The notes beneath the pieces are model-generated. The model was not told where the DNA came from, did no database searches, and was given only the letters and a program-made list of their open reading frames with translations. From positions 2,728,001-2,792,000 of the forward strand of contig NZ_JACCFH010000001.1 in assembly GCF_013410775.1 (NCBI RefSeq): a stretch of DNA of 64,000 nucleotides, in the 5' to 3' direction. The DNA comes from Sphaerotilus montanus. Lineage in GTDB: Bacteria; Pseudomonadota; Gammaproteobacteria; Burkholderiales; Burkholderiaceae_C. Every line of letters begins with the position of its first letter. The stretch's first letter is position 1. Positions 6,289-37,579 of this stretch are shown here, one piece after another. The position numbers and the translations under genes are program-made.

Positions 6289-7806
6289 ATGAAAGCGATT
6301 GCAATAAAGCTGGGCCTGATTGCGCCCATGTTTCTGGCCGGGTGTGCCACCATCAGCACACAGACCTATGACCAGGTGCGTGAAGCCCGTGACACGAGCG
6401 GCCCGCAGGGTGCGGTCAAGGTGCTGGAACAGGCTGGTGGCACGGATCTGCTGTCCCAGCTGGAATATGGCGAGATGCTGCGTCTGGCCTCCCGCCACGA
6501 AGACAGCCTGAAAGCTTTCCAGTCCGCGGACCAGAAGGTCGGCGAATGGGAAAACGGCGCCCGCTCCGACATCGAGAAAACCGCCGGCATGGTATTGGGT
6601 GCAGTCGTCAGCGAGCGGCTCACGGCCTACGAAGGCCAGGATTATGAAAAGGTCATGCTCACCGTGCGCATGGCGCTCGACCGGATGGCCCTCGGCGACT
6701 GGAATACGGCCCGCGTCGATATCCGCCGTACCCACGACCGCGAAGACCTGATCGCCGAACTGCGCGCGAAGGAATACAGCAAGGTCGAGGAAAAGGCGAA
6801 GGCGGAATCGAAGACCGAAGGTTTCCAGCCGATCAAGCTGACTGAAATCGACGGGTATCCGGTGAAGTCGATCCAGGATCCCCGGCTGAGCCAGCTGAAG
6901 AATGGCTACCAGAATGCGCTCGGGCATTATCTGTCCGGGTTTCTCTACGAAGCCTTGCAGGAGCCCAGCCTCGCCGCACCGGGTTACCAGCGCGCTGCCG
7001 AGTTGTCGCCTGGCAGCAAGTTGCCGCAGCAGGCCCTGGCCACGCTGGATCGCCGCGTGGCCCGTGCGACCGCGGGCCAGACCGATGTCCTGTTCCTGAT
7101 CGAACATGGCGAAGCGCCCCGACTGGTGGCGAAGAGCTTTGCGATTCCCTATGGCATTGGCGGGGTCGGCGTACCGAAATTCTTCCAGATGAGCATCCCC
7201 TACTTCGACGACATGCCGTCGAAGAGCGCGGCGCCCAGCCAGATCACGGTGGGTGGCCGCAGCCTGAAGCTGGAACCCATCGTCGATTTCGGCCTGATGG
7301 CCAACCGTTCCCTGAAGGACCGCATGCCCGGCATCCTGCTGCGGGGGTTCATCCGTGGCGCGGCCAAGGCGGTCGTGCGGGACAAGGTGAACGAGCGGAA
7401 TCCGCTGCTGGGCCTGGCCGTCACCCTGGCGACTGTGGCCAGCGAGGTGCCGGATGACCGCACCTGGCGTGGCCTGCCGCAGCGCATCTACATCGCCCGG
7501 GCGCAGATGCCCGAGGGTGAGCACACCATCAGGATCGACGGTGTCGCGGACGCCGTCCAGCCGGTGAGGGTCGCGGGCCGCTATGCGGTGGTGCCCATCC
7601 GGATCATCGGCAGCCGCGGGTTCAACACGGGGGTGGCCTTGTTGAATCAAGGTGGTGCGGTGACCGCCAGTTCAGGGGACACGCCGGGAACTTCGGCGGA
7701 TTCTCCGGTGGGTGGTGATGCCGGCACGCCGTCCGCATCCCCCATCGCGGTGACGCCGGATGTGGCTGCGCCAGCGGCTGTCCGGCGCGTCAAGGTACGG
7801 AAATGA
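6289..7806 (+). CDS. COG3014-family lipoprotein of the LpoB-associated envelope cluster
   Basis: A 505-aa protein with a lipoprotein signal peptide (basic start MKAIAIK, hydrophobic core, lipobox LAGC with the modified Cys near residue 22). The body contains TPR-like helical stretches (for example YGEMLRLASRHEDSLKAFQSAD), in keeping with COG3014. The function of the family is not established; it recurs beside ycfL/lpoB-type genes. The 6289 ATG is chosen because it starts the signal peptide; an in-frame ATG at 6271 is possible. First gene of a four-gene same-strand cluster downstream of the 6157 promoter. The last about 55 residues are a low-complexity Ser/Thr/Pro/Ala tail. Confidence 0.72.
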   Translation: MKAIAIKLGLIAPMFLAGCATISTQTYDQVREARDTSGPQGAVKVLEQAGGTDLLSQLEYGEMLRLASRHEDSLKAFQSADQKVGEWENGARSDIEKTAGMVLGAVVSERLTAYEGQDYEKVMLTVRMALDRMALGDWNTARVDIRRTHDREDLIAELRAKEYSKVEEKAKAESKTEGFQPIKLTEIDGYPVKSIQDPRLSQLKNGYQNALGHYLSGFLYEALQEPSLAAPGYQRAAELSPGSKLPQQALATLDRRVARATAGQTDVLFLIEHGEAPRLVAKSFAIPYGIGGVGVPKFFQMSIPYFDDMPSKSAAPSQITVGGRSLKLEPIVDFGLMANRSLKDRMPGILLRGFIRGAAKAVVRDKVNERNPLLGLAVTLATVASEVPDDRTWRGLPQRIYIARAQMPEGEHTIRIDGVADAVQPVRVAGRYAVVPIRIIGSRGFNTGVALLNQGGAVTASSGDTPGTSADSPVGGDAGTPSASPIAVTPDVAAPAAVRRVKVRK

Positions 7807-7829
7807 ACAGGTATCGAAGGATGCAGGAG

Positions 7830-8255
7830 ATGGACTTGAAACAATCGATTCGGTGCGTGTCGCTGATCTCCCTGGTGTCGCTGGCCATGGTGGGCTGTGC
7901 CCAGCAGGACCGTGTCGTGGAAATGGCCACGCCGATGGCGCAGTCGCAAATGGCGGGATCTGCGGCCAGCAAGGTACTGCTGCGCGGCGCGGCCAATGAC
8001 GTGAAGATCGTGGATGTCCGCGCCCAGAAGCGTTCCGGCATGCTGACGGTGCAGACCGAAGTGATCAACGAGGCCGGCCGCAACCGCACCGTGTACTGGC
8101 GCTATCGCTGGCTGGATGACGCGGGCATGCAGATTGGCGATGACGAACCCTGGAAGCCGCAGCAACTGCTCGGACACCAGTCGATCATGCTGCGTGGCAG
8201 CGCGATGAAAACCACCGCCGCCGATTTCCGGCTTGAAATGAATGTGGAACCCTGA
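7830..8255 (+). CDS. YcfL-like lipoprotein (DUF1425)
   Basis: A 141-aa lipoprotein with signal peptide and lipobox MVGC near residues 20-23. The C-terminal about 100 residues match the YcfL pattern: a beta-rich domain with VQTEVINEAGRNRTVYWRYRW and a WKPQQLLGHQS stretch. The 7830 ATG is preferred because AGGA sits about 8 nt upstream and the signal peptide begins there. An alternative ATG at 7803 overlaps the previous stop. Role unknown; ycfL lies next to lpoB in enterobacteria, and the same neighbour follows here. Confidence 0.75.
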   Translation: MDLKQSIRCVSLISLVSLAMVGCAQQDRVVEMATPMAQSQMAGSAASKVLLRGAANDVKIVDVRAQKRSGMLTVQTEVINEAGRNRTVYWRYRWLDDAGMQIGDDEPWKPQQLLGHQSIMLRGSAMKTTAADFRLEMNVEP

Positions 8256-32945: not shown

Positions 32946-35936
32946 ATGAACCATTTGTTTCTCGGGCTCGGGGGAGCCGGTGTCCGGGTCTGGCAGGCGC
33001 TGCAGCAGCGTCTGCAGTCCCGGCTGGAAGGAGCGCCGGCCAGCCGCCGGCCAGCCATCGAGGTGGTTCTGCTGGACACCGATGCCCGCGCGCTGGCCGA
33101 CAGCGCGCCCGGCTGGCGCGTGCTGGGCGTGTGTTCCATGCCGCCTGTGTCCCAGCGTGTCCTGCTGGGCGCCGACACCGAGGCGCTGACGTCCCTGCTG
33201 CAGGCCCGCACCGAGTTGCGCTCCACCGTGGCACCGGACGGCCAGGGCTGGGCCGCCCGCCTGCAGCAGCTCGGCGCCTTCGACGCGCCGCTGTCGCAAG
33301 TCGGCGAGCGCCTGCCGGGCTGGCCGACACGCCGGCTCGGCCGGCTGCTGCTGGCGCTGCACCAGGCGCGCGTGCGCTGCGCCGTCGACGCGGCGGTGCA
33401 GGCCTTGCAGGCGCGCACCGCCGACAAGGCGCTCACCATCCACGTCGTGGCCCACCTGGGCGGGACGACCGGTGCTGCCTTGCTGCTGGACATGCTCGCG
33501 CTGCTGCACCGGCATCCGCCCGCGCCGCGCTGCGTGGTGCAGGTCCACGTCGAGTTGCCCGACCATGACAGCGCCGGCCTGTACCCGGCGCCGCTGGCCG
33601 AGGTCCAGGCCTACGCGGCGCTGCGCGAGTTGCAGGTCGCCGCGCAGTCGGGGCTGTTCGAGCTGTGTTTCCTGGGCGCGATGACCGACGAGCGCGGCCT
33701 GCAGCCCTTCGATGCCGCGGGCCGGGAGCACCGGCTGGCGGACTGGCTGTTCCACCGCATGGCCGAGGCCACGGATCCGCTGGCCTTGCCGGCACCGGCG
33801 CCGGTGCGTGCGCAGGGTGCGGTCCGTGCCGGCGAGTTCGCGGCCTTCGGGCTGGCCGAGCGGGCGGCGGACCGCCATGCCGTGCGCGCCCACCTGAGCC
33901 ACGAGCTGATGCTGCGGCTGCTGGCCCAGCTGCGCTACAACCACTGGCGCGCCGGCCTGGGCTTCGTCACGCATCCGCGGGTGACCGGGCACGAGTCGCT
34001 GGCCGAGCTGATGAACGCCTGGGGCCTGAGCGACGCGCATTTCCAGCTCGCCGTGCCGCTGCCGGAAATCGATGGCGACACGCTGCCGAGCCTGTCGATC
34101 GAGCAGGAATGGCAGATGCTGGAGACCCACTTTGTCGGGCTGATCGCGCTGGTGGCGCCCTCGCGCCGCATCAACGAGCTGCGGCGGCTCTTCGACCAGG
34201 GCCTGTCCGAACGCTTCCGCGGCCAGGGCATCGAGGCCGTGTTCGACCAGCCCGACCACACGCTGCGCCGCCGCGCGGTGGTGGTGCGCCAGCGGGTCGA
34301 GAACAGCCTCTGGGACGACTGGCGCCAGGGCCGCCGCGCGCTGCACGAGTGCGGGCAGCTGCTGGCGGCCGTGCTGGCCGATCTGGCCGACCGGATCGAG
34401 CCGCTGCGCCAGGAGCAGCACGGGCTGGAGACCCAGGCCACCGTGCTGAACCGCCAGCTCGACGCGCTGGAGCAGGCCGCGAGCGGCCCGCTGCAGGCGC
34501 TCGGGCTGCTGCGCGGCGTGCGCGAGCGCGACCTGTCCGAGGCGACCGCACTGCTGCGCGAATACGCACTGGCCCGCACCCGCTCCAGCGCGATCACGCT
34601 GAGCCTGCGCTTGCTGGCCGAGGTGCAGTCGCAGCTGACCACGCTGCAGGGCATGGTCGACGGTGGCGAGATGGCCGTGGCGACGCTGGCCGAGGAAACC
34701 GACGTCGCCGCCACCGCGACACTGCCGCCGCTCAACGCGGCCGACGCGGACGGCCGGCTCGATACCCGCGAACTGCTGGCCCACTGGCGCACCCAGCTCG
34801 TCACGCGCGAGTCCGTGCAGCGCGAGCACCTGCGCGTGCTGCGGGCCGGTCTGTTCGCGCAACTGGGCGAACAGGCCAATTTCCGCATCTTCGCGCAGCG
34901 CATCGGCGAGCAGGAGACCTGCGACGCGTTGCTGGCGGCCTGCGCGAAGCGGCTGCCGCCGGTCGCCCTGCAGCCGGTGGTGTCGGCGGCCTGGGATGCC
35001 TGGGTGATGCGACTGCATGGCGAATCGGATGCCGCGGCGCGCGACCTCGCCACGCTGCAGACCCGCGCCAGCATCGGGCTGGCCTGGCTGCCGGCGGTGG
35101 CTGCAGGCCGTGTGGCGCAGGGCGAACTGCTGCGTGTGCCGGCACCGCCGAGGCCGGATCCGGTGGAGGAGCCCGATGGGGAGGAGGCGGTGGCCGAGGC
35201 GACCGGATCCGCCCCGGACGATCCGGAGACCGATGGCGAGCAGACCGTGGTCCTGCGCCCGGTGACCCGCGTGGTGCCAGCGCTGCCAGGCGTGGCGGAG
35301 CTGATCCACCGCATCAACCGCCTGCAGCCGCTGGTGCAGGAGCTGCCGGAGGGCCAGGGCGAACTGGTGCTGTTGCGCATGGTGCGGGGCCTGCCCCTGC
35401 AGGCGCTGCCGCGGGTGCAGGAGCTGCACCTGCGCCACGAAGCCCACCGGCTGCAGGCCGGCCGCGCCGCACTCTGGCTGCAACTGGATGACGAGGCTGC
35501 CTTGCCCGAACTGCTGGCCGCCGACGTACAGGCGCAGAAGGCCCGCGCCCGTACCGTGGTGCTGCTGGCCGAGGCCTTTGGCCTGTTGCGCGAGGACATC
35601 GACCCCGTCAGCGCCGAGCCGGTGCTGCTGCATGTCCGCCTGGACGAGGACGGCTTCGAGCTGGACCGCCTGTGTCTGGGCCGCGGGCCGCTCGACGCGG
35701 TGGAGCAGGCGCGCGAGCGGGTGCTCCACGGTCTGCATGACGAGGTGACCGTGAGATTGCAGGCGCGCGACATGCAGCAGCCCGCAGTCCAGACCGCATT
35801 GCGCGACGCCATGCGCCAGCGCATCGATCTGCTGCGCAACCAGGCGCCGCCCGAACAGCGCGACACCGTCAGTCGCGAATGGAACGAGGCGGCCCGTGCC
35901 GCCATGAAACTGGCCAGACAGGAATCCGTGCAATGA
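32946..35936 (+). CDS. Tubulin-like protein (Tubulin_2/PF13809-type) of unknown role
   Basis: A 996-aa protein. The N-terminus NHLFLGLGGAGVRVWQAL places a Gly-rich nucleotide loop at residues 7-12. VVLLDTDARAL follows at 40-50, and HVVAHLGGTTGAALLLDML (168-183) corresponds to the tubulin/FtsZ signature loop, here GGTTGA. These features and the length fit the bacterial 'tubulin-like' family. The middle holds helical, coiled-coil-prone segments (around residue 500). An acidic linker (EEPDGEEAVAEATGSAPDD, near 740-770) precedes a C-terminal domain. The start at 32946 puts the loop at the N-terminus; an in-frame start at 32877 is possible. AAGG lies 12 nt upstream. The stop overlaps the next gene (ATGA). 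Confidence 0.75.
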   Translation: MNHLFLGLGGAGVRVWQALQQRLQSRLEGAPASRRPAIEVVLLDTDARALADSAPGWRVLGVCSMPPVSQRVLLGADTEALTSLLQARTELRSTVAPDGQGWAARLQQLGAFDAPLSQVGERLPGWPTRRLGRLLLALHQARVRCAVDAAVQALQARTADKALTIHVVAHLGGTTGAALLLDMLALLHRHPPAPRCVVQVHVELPDHDSAGLYPAPLAEVQAYAALRELQVAAQSGLFELCFLGAMTDERGLQPFDAAGREHRLADWLFHRMAEATDPLALPAPAPVRAQGAVRAGEFAAFGLAERAADRHAVRAHLSHELMLRLLAQLRYNHWRAGLGFVTHPRVTGHESLAELMNAWGLSDAHFQLAVPLPEIDGDTLPSLSIEQEWQMLETHFVGLIALVAPSRRINELRRLFDQGLSERFRGQGIEAVFDQPDHTLRRRAVVVRQRVENSLWDDWRQGRRALHECGQLLAAVLADLADRIEPLRQEQHGLETQATVLNRQLDALEQAASGPLQALGLLRGVRERDLSEATALLREYALARTRSSAITLSLRLLAEVQSQLTTLQGMVDGGEMAVATLAEETDVAATATLPPLNAADADGRLDTRELLAHWRTQLVTRESVQREHLRVLRAGLFAQLGEQANFRIFAQRIGEQETCDALLAACAKRLPPVALQPVVSAAWDAWVMRLHGESDAAARDLATLQTRASIGLAWLPAVAAGRVAQGELLRVPAPPRPDPVEEPDGEEAVAEATGSAPDDPETDGEQTVVLRPVTRVVPALPGVAELIHRINRLQPLVQELPEGQGELVLLRMVRGLPLQALPRVQELHLRHEAHRLQAGRAALWLQLDDEAALPELLAADVQAQKARARTVVLLAEAFGLLREDIDPVSAEPVLLHVRLDEDGFELDRLCLGRGPLDAVEQARERVLHGLHDEVTVRLQARDMQQPAVQTALRDAMRQRIDLLRNQAPPEQRDTVSREWNEAARAAMKLARQESVQ

Positions 35937-37579
35937 GTCGAGGTGTGTGTACCAATCTGCCCGCCGCCTGTAGCCAGGCAGCGGCCCGGGCCGTGCTGCC
36001 CTGTCCCGACCAGGACACCCGCTGCCCCACCTGTGGCGCGGCCCTGCTGCCGATCGGCGATGGCACCGGGGCCGGCAAGGGCGCGGGCGCCGCGCGCTGG
36101 GCGGCTTCGTCGCTGGCTGTGGCGCTGGCGCTGGGGGCTGGCTGGAACTGGTGGCCCCACAGCACGCCGGAGGCGGAGCAGTCCGTGGGCGCCGCAGCGG
36201 GGATGTCGCCGGCCGCGCTGGCGGTGGCACAGGCCGCCTCGGCGCTCGAATCCGAACCGCCCGGGGTCGGCACGCCCAACGTCTTCGCGCTGCACGGCAT
36301 GGACGTCCTCGGCCCGGTGCTGAGCGGCGAGCTGATGGAGACGTTCCTGACGCAGGAGGGCCACGTGGAAGTCCACCGCAGCCCGCCGGATCCGCGTGGC
36401 GCCGTGCTGGTTTCCGCCCGGCGTCCTGGCGGTCTGCGCCAGGACATCCGGCTCGCGTTCGACGGTGGTTCTGCTGCGCCGAACGACGCCAGCCTGCGCC
36501 GTGTCTCGTCCACCTCGGGCGCGGACCTGAAAGACAACCAGGTGCTGGTCGGCATGGACGCCCTCGCGGTGATCGTGCACCCGGGCAATCCCATGGACCG
36601 CGTCAGTCTCGCGCAGTTGCGCGAGCTGCTCTCGGGCCGGGTGGTCGATGGCACCCGCCTGGGCGGCCCCGCCGGTCCGGTCCGGGTGAACGTGCGCAAC
36701 GAGGCGTCCGACAGCTGGAATCTGGTGTGGCACCAGGTGCTCGGGGATGCGAGCGCTGGTGCGGATCTGCAGCGCCATGCCTCCGACGCGGCCCTGGTCG
36801 CCGCCGTCGGCGCCGACGAGCATGCGCTGGGACTGGTGCCGCTGTCGGCCGTCGGCGCGGCCAAGGTGCTGGCGGTGGTCGACTCGATCGGCTCGGTCTG
36901 GCAACCCACGCCGGAGTCGGTCGCGACCGAGCGCTATCCGCTGACGCACCGGCTGGTGATGCAGATGCCGGTCGCGTCGTCGCCGGTGGCGCTGCGCTAT
37001 GCCCAGTTCCTGGCCGGTCCGGTCGCGCAGACGAAGCTGCGCAGCAGCGGGCTGGCCAGCGCGTTGCCGGTGCTGGTCGATCAGACGAACGCCGGTCCGC
37101 TGACGGCGGGTGCGGCCGTGAAGCTGCCCAAGGACTACGTCGCGCTGACCCGCGGCGCGCAGCTGATGACCGGGCGCATCGGGTTTGCCGCCGAATCGGC
37201 CGACCTCGACGCGGTGGCCCATGTCGATGTCGATCGCCTGGCGCGCCAGCTCAAGGAGCAGACCGCGGGCAAGCCGGTCTCGGTGGTGGTGGTGGGTGTG
37301 GCCAACGATCCGGGTGGTTTCTGCGCCAACCGGGCGCTGTCGGACAGGCGTGCCGCCAGCGTGGCCGATGCGCTGACGGCGCAGGGCGTGCAGGTCCGCG
37401 TCGTGCGTGGTGTCGGCCGCTTCGCGCCGGCGCCCGCGACCGGTGCGGATGATGTGGCCCGTGACCGCCGGGTCGAGGTCTGGGTGTCCGATGCGGCGGT
37501 GCGCCAGCCTGCGCCGTTCAAGTGCATTTCGGGCACCGGGCAGGTCGCCATGGTCGGCGGAGCCGCTTCGGCGCCCTGA
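35933..37579 (+). CDS. Zinc-ribbon / transmembrane / PBP-like / OmpA-domain protein
   Basis: A 548-aa protein coupled to the tubulin-like gene by a 4-nt overlap. Residues 6-34 are Cys-rich (C6, C13, C24, C31, C34, with CPTC), like a zinc ribbon. A single hydrophobic span follows at 57-74. Residues about 105-375 look like a PstS-type periplasmic binding domain (VFALHGMDVLGPVLSGELMETFL, ALAVIVHPGNPMDRVSLAQLRELLSG). Residues about 415-530 are OmpA-like (FAAESADLDAVAHVDVDRLARQL ... RDRRVEVWV), which usually binds peptidoglycan. The predicted topology is N-in, C-periplasmic, so it could connect a cytoplasmic polymer to the wall; this is inference. Confidence 0.72.
   Translation: MSRGVCTNLPAACSQAAARAVLPCPDQDTRCPTCGAALLPIGDGTGAGKGAGAARWAASSLAVALALGAGWNWWPHSTPEAEQSVGAAAGMSPAALAVAQAASALESEPPGVGTPNVFALHGMDVLGPVLSGELMETFLTQEGHVEVHRSPPDPRGAVLVSARRPGGLRQDIRLAFDGGSAAPNDASLRRVSSTSGADLKDNQVLVGMDALAVIVHPGNPMDRVSLAQLRELLSGRVVDGTRLGGPAGPVRVNVRNEASDSWNLVWHQVLGDASAGADLQRHASDAALVAAVGADEHALGLVPLSAVGAAKVLAVVDSIGSVWQPTPESVATERYPLTHRLVMQMPVASSPVALRYAQFLAGPVAQTKLRSSGLASALPVLVDQTNAGPLTAGAAVKLPKDYVALTRGAQLMTGRIGFAAESADLDAVAHVDVDRLARQLKEQTAGKPVSVVVVGVANDPGGFCANRALSDRRAASVADALTAQGVQVRVVRGVGRFAPAPATGADDVARDRRVEVWVSDAAVRQPAPFKCISGTGQVAMVGGAASAP

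Follow-up and report, generated by a model that had tools for sequence, protein, structure and literature searches.

The FtsZl1 family of FtsZ-like proteins and its association with OmpA-domain proteins were described in 2010 by Makarova and Koonin, and membrane remodelling was proposed as the role of FtsZl1 (PMC2875224). Reviewer comments in the same paper raise transport or signalling as an alternative, citing a periplasmic binding protein, as well as the objection of how an FtsZ-like protein in the cytoplasm could cooperate with partners in the periplasm and outer membrane (PMC2875224). The main text of that paper makes no mention of zinc. In 2020, conflict systems with tubulin components were described (PMC7159879).

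A two-gene cassette in the window, the 64,000-nucleotide stretch of the Sphaerotilus montanus genome analysed here, is a variant of the FtsZl1-OmpA association known since 2010 (Table 1). Both genes of the pair are real. Translation from the ATG codons at 32946, in agreement with the aligned N termini of relatives, and at 35933 confirms the two open reading frames described in an earlier note on this DNA, together with the GLGGAG and GGTTGA motifs of the first, and the translational coupling proposed there is borne out by the ATGA overlap. The dN/dS values of the window genes against relatives are 0.18 to 0.27 (approximately 0.2 to 0.3), so both P0001 and P0002 are under purifying selection, and a pseudogene reading is ruled out by these values and the intact reading frames. 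The neighbours scanned code for an HI0933-like flavoprotein, a PEP-CTERM protein, DnaE, a UPF0176/rhodanese protein (trhO), a DUF599 protein, and a pirin, with neither a vWA nor a MoxR gene among them. The pair had been described as sitting alone between dnaE and trhO, which is right as regards these neighbours, but a solitary cassette is ruled out by a second pair in the same genome (G000:C1, 918.8-923.1 kb).

Table 1. Positions in the window of the tubulin-like gene, its partner, and their predicted features
Feature	Positions	Strand	Basis or remark
P0001, Tubulin_2/FtsZ-like 1 protein, 996 aa	32946..35936	+	Pfam PF13809, AlphaFold model, fold search
T1-type glycine loop GLGGAG, residues 7-12, near-canonical	32964..32981	+	Translation, loop alignment
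Altered T4-type loop GGTTGA, residues 172-177; AGGTGSG in close outgroups	33459..33476	+	Translation, loop alignment
Helical/coiled-coil region, residues ~437-592	34254..34721	+	Secondary structure of the model
ATGA stop/start overlap	35933..35936	+	4-nt junction; shared by 12/13 genus junctions read
P0002, Zn ribbon-TM-PstS-fold-OmpA protein, 548 aa	35933..37579	+	Translation, Pfam, model
Four-cysteine ribbon C6, C13, C31, C34	35948..36034	+	Invariant in Sphaerotilus-clade partners and the Comamonas partner
Candidate membrane span, residues ~57-74, weak in window copy	36101..36154	+	Hydropathy
PstS-type binding-protein fold without phosphate-binding loops	36278..37066	+	Loop alignment, model
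OmpA-like peptidoglycan-binding domain	37163..37492	+	Pfam, model

P0001 is placed in FtsZl1/Tubulin_2 because of its homology and fold, and this placement does not imply GTPase activity. Its match to Pfam PF13809 (E 1.4e-13, 51.3 bits) is above the curated cut-off of 27, and the tubulin-like character that had been read from its two glycine-rich loops is upheld by the predicted structure, an AlphaFold model built from nine sequences and of moderate quality (mean pLDDT 63). The best match of this model in a fold search is CetZ (3zid; Z 18.8, 184 residues at 3.0 A), many tubulins also match it at Z 16-18, and Foldseek alone gives E 1.1e-3 to the same top match; the tubulin/CetZ fold corresponds to residues ~1-275, with alignments falling within residues 1-301. 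The predicted layout is a tubulin-fold N-terminal domain, a long coiled coil, a disordered stretch, and a small alpha/beta C-terminal domain, with residues 861-990 modelled as a small helical domain with three strands. The coiled coil and mostly helical C-terminal region typical of FtsZl1 are thereby present in the model, as long helices at residues 385-700 and the small domain at 861-990; the second tubulin domain is not recovered.

GTP-dependent filament formation is assumed for the FtsZl1 family. The FtsZl1 GTP-site signature GGGTG(S/T)G, which is not a requirement of the PF13809 model, is missing from P0001, which reads LGGTTGAA compared with LAGGTGSG in the outgroups, and GTP binding may therefore be absent; GGTTGA is thus present as the earlier note reported, but as an altered T4 loop. 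P0001 has no match to an NCBIfam family or a PADLOC defence family and no sequence match in the PDB, and a phage origin was rejected, with 0 matches in 50,697 phage records.

The PstS-like and OmpA-like domains previously suggested for P0002 are both supported, with Pfam matches to OmpA (E 1.4e-9) and PBP_like_2 (E 3.5e-6), and with a model that matches PstS proteins (1twy; E 5e-15, TMt 0.78) and, in its OmpA part, PA0833, OprF, and Pal; its PADLOC matches are weak ones to MotB/ZorB, confined to the OmpA part. A candidate membrane span is present at the place first proposed, but it is weak (mean Kyte-Doolittle score 1.26 over 19 residues, compared with 1.8-2.8 in most pairs), and the flanking charges leave its topology unsettled. 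The phosphate-contacting loops (GSNT, HGSSTAF..ADIGMSSR, and RDxxSGT) are kept by the other paralogue groups and by the Comamonas partner and are replaced or deleted in P0002, so that the proposal of a periplasmic ligand sensor lacks support for the window copy. OmpA domains hold diaminopimelate with a conserved Asp and a conserved Arg. The Arg is retained in P0002 (LSxRRA), and the Asp stretch reads AND, shifted by one; site-A OmpA domains have AND around the peptidoglycan-binding Asp, compared with FAD in the Comamonas domain, and their peptidoglycan binding may be changed as a result.

The two genes travel together. In a genus sample of 13 genomes, named Sphaerotilus/Leptothrix from close relatives, P0001 homologues are present in 11, and full-length P0002 homologues are found in exactly those 11 genomes, so that the refuting outcome named in the earlier note, neighbours not conserved across genomes, does not arise; there are 16 copies of P0002 in the genus, of which one is truncated where its contig stops. 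The one junction among the 13 read that lacks the ATGA overlap has a gap of ~35 nt. The pairs occupy several genomic sites across the genus, the place near dnaE is stable in several genomes with no mobile signs seen, and the trees of both genes contain the same three clades. Outside the genus, Tubulin_2 is rare (8/301 genomes of the family, 4/369 of the class, and 6/398 of the phylum), and in a Comamonas metagenome-assembled genome (L059) a canonical tubulin-like gene precedes a distant homologue of P0002 with 28% identity.

A protein with a four-cysteine ribbon and a transmembrane segment is coded directly downstream of P0001-type FtsZl1 in all eight lineages read (8/8), and its periplasmic part varies by lineage, being PstS plus OmpA, TPR, or a short tail, in which case a TAXI-type binding protein is coded next. 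Outside the genus, the ribbon-TM gene lies 0-80 bp downstream of FtsZl1 in L059, L060, L061, L102, L048, L097, and L047. In L060, L061, and L102 the ribbon-TM protein is short and precedes a binding protein whose N terminus is signal-like; Pfam assigns the binding proteins of L060 and L102 to the NMT1/TAXI type, and that of L061 is similar to them. The ribbon-TM proteins of L048, L097, and L047 have a periplasmic part of their own (TPR by Pfam in L048). A ribbon HMM built from eight sequences, with the genus left out and outgroups only used, ranks most genus ribbons above background (the window copy at E 5.6e-4, several paralogues weakly), and no ribbonless PBP-OmpA homologue appears among its matches. 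The ribbon is also absent from the N termini of all 26 tubulin-less PBP-OmpA homologues read from other Pseudomonadota, one of which (L129) has CCRC upstream of its likely start; the genomes of these homologues have no Tubulin_2 match in the class and phylum samples, to which they are assigned by their handle numbers. Presence of the ribbon therefore tracks that of the tubulin-like gene, and the PBP-OmpA part can do without it. The ribbon is not universal in Tubulin_2, with no ribbon protein directly downstream in L100, L113, L114, L101, or the Thermus locus, and L112 has a different, double-CxxC protein downstream of its Tubulin_2 gene. This pattern of co-occurrence suggests that the ribbon-TM protein is likely a cytoplasmic adaptor of FtsZl1, and such an adaptor next door would be a direct, testable answer to how a cytoplasmic FtsZ-like protein works with periplasmic or outer-membrane partners. 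A search of the main texts of openly readable articles found no paper joining FtsZl1 with a zinc-ribbon adaptor.

Other Tubulin_2 loci have varied surroundings. A recurring neighbourhood (L047:5332-12762, L048:7533-14419, and L097:9602-16501) contains genes for a caspase-like protein, DUF4384 (a Pfam match in L047 and L048, a similar protein in L097), Tubulin_2, the ribbon-TM protein, and a small second protein, with a separate OmpA protein as well in L047, and looks like a distinct FtsZl1 system. At L100:9171-14851, a Tubulin_2 open reading frame of 1382 aa overlaps that of a protein whose N-terminal part is ATPase-like and whose C-terminal stretch is TIR-like, resembling a conflict system, and Thermus and Allomeiothermus plasmids (L098:8392-16351 and L099:8363-17455) have consecutive vWA, tubulin-like, unknown, and BrxL-annotated genes. 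The 9.8-kb uncultured phage record MT836542.1 includes a stretch (6946-7947) 22% identical to an FtsZl1 protein (E 3e-5), and L115:8164-9525 codes for a 454-aa Tubulin_2 piece that is a truncated copy by appearance.

Within Sphaerotilus/Leptothrix, comparison of loop sequences indicates that the duplicated pairs decayed reciprocally. The tubulin-like loops of close outgroups read GLGG(T/S)G (T1) and AGGTG(S/G)G (T4), and those of window-type copies GLGG(A/T)G and GG(A/T)TGA. Single-pair species have sequences such as LGDIGAAG or LGDPVGGG, and both loops are absent from site-B copies. Conservation of the GTP loops in homologues, to which the earlier note had tied its tubulin reading, thus holds in the outgroups, where T1 and T4 are intact, but not in the window group, where they are altered, or in several paralogues, where they are destroyed. 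The partners show the opposite pattern: window-type partners lost GSNT, the HGSSTAF..ADIGMSSR segment, and SGT, all of which the other genus copies retain, and full-length window-type copies match the Comamonas partner at 24-30% identity in the PBP part, compared with 46-51% for the other copies. The trees of the two genes have complementary stem lengths. The window organism carries both kinds of pair, one copy of each; its second pair has kept T1 and the PstS loops and lost T4. By their sequences, window-type copies have kept an altered GTP loop and lost the phosphate-binding loops, and the other copies have kept PstS and lost one or both tubulin loops. Such reciprocal decay is a natural experiment parting tubulin function from ligand-binding function in sheath-forming filamentous bacteria; neither it nor the ribbon-TM adaptor beside FtsZl1 was found in the literature searched. 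The site-B tubulin-like proteins at L038:8890-12833, L040:8474-12366, and L041:9333-13192 are 737-749 aa long and have lost both nucleotide loops, and their loci retain the gene order and the ATGA overlap with an intact-looking PstS-OmpA partner.

The best overall explanation, which we hold with moderate confidence, is an FtsZl1 (Tubulin_2) system in which P0002 is the dedicated membrane-crossing partner of P0001. P0001, with its tubulin fold and long coiled coil, would reside in the cytoplasm, and the N-terminal zinc ribbon of P0002, itself predicted to be cytoplasmic, would recruit it to the inner membrane; from its co-occurrence with the tubulin-like gene, this ribbon most likely binds P0001; the TM helix would span the inner membrane, and the OmpA domain would engage peptidoglycan on the periplasmic side. 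Because the PstS domain looks intact in some relatives and a separate binding protein follows in others, the ancestral role is best read as the coupling of a periplasmic cue, either a small ligand or the state of the wall, to a nucleotide-dependent assembly beneath the inner membrane, and the use of a binding protein from either of two families, fused or adjacent, points to a ligand cue. The pair would then have been duplicated in the Sphaerotilus/Leptothrix clade and its copies have diverged, the window type having an altered, possibly nucleotide-binding tubulin domain, an OmpA anchor, and a dead PstS domain, and the second copy a retained PstS domain and a tubulin domain without one or both loops. 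The earlier suggestion of a tether to the cell wall is supported in part, as it fits the tubulin fold, the coupling, the co-occurrence, and the ribbon-TM-OmpA layout but sits less well with the weak TM span; since the cue domain of the window copy looks dead and its span is weak, OmpA anchoring is the better supported part. More tentatively, a clade of FtsZl1 systems could be transmembrane signalling or anchoring modules built on an interchangeable ribbon-TM adaptor with a swappable periplasmic part, the two duplicated pairs in Sphaerotilus possibly being complementary halves of one complex, with one nucleotide-dependent and one phosphate-sensing subunit.

A conflict or cell-death (anti-phage) system, with the tubulin-fold protein as an oligomerizing switch and the periplasmic part sensing envelope damage, is a fairly unlikely account of the pair. 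Relatives do adjoin caspase-like proteins and DUF4384, a protein ending in a TIR-like stretch (L100), and vWA/BrxL genes (Thermus), tubulin components are described in such systems (PMC7159879), and Tubulin_2 is sparsely distributed, yet the window locus has no effector, its stable position near dnaE in several genomes is free of mobile signs, and defence-family searching gives nothing for P0001 and weak MotB/ZorB likeness for the OmpA part of P0002. Persistence of the pairs with GTP-site loops altered or lost in every genus copy makes it distinctly unlikely that they are the membrane remodelling machine proposed in 2010, in which GTP-dependent FtsZl1 filaments would deform the inner membrane with P0002 merely an anchor, and FtsZ filament-forming elements are not recognised in FtsZl1, even though membrane and OmpA proteins are general associates of FtsZl1 (PMC2875224) and P0001 has a predicted tubulin fold. 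A remnant heading for loss, its nucleotide switch gone and its proteins a static scaffold between cytoplasm and wall, would accommodate the erosion of the T4 loop, of the PstS loops, and of the TM span in the window copy and the missing tubulin loops of site-B copies but is very improbable given the dN/dS values, intact frames, and invariant ribbon cysteines.

As a tubulin-like protein with a probable membrane-crossing partner, the pair can be compared with three described arrangements. It resembles GTPase-centred conflict systems with tubulin (PMC7159879) in having a tubulin-fold protein as a possible assembly component and a membrane-proximal partner, but the window locus has no DO-GTPase, GAP1, vWA, or effector gene. 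Tubulin-less PstS/OmpA fusions, such as that of Pseudoalteromonas sp. THAF3 (WP_152441739.1), share the PBP-OmpA chain (~42% identity to the Comamonas partner) but have no ribbon and no adjoining tubulin-like gene, and in the homologues sampled a signal peptide or TM segment comes first. With FtsZl1 (PF13809) itself P0001 shares the N-terminal tubulin-fold domain, coiled coil, and C-terminal domain, and the locus the association with an OmpA-domain protein and, as in Polaromonas, with a periplasmic binding protein; the locus differs in having no vWA, kinase, or GTPase gene, in the nucleotide loops that are decaying in Sphaerotilus/Leptothrix, and in a partner that combines a Zn ribbon, TM segment, PstS, and OmpA in a single chain.
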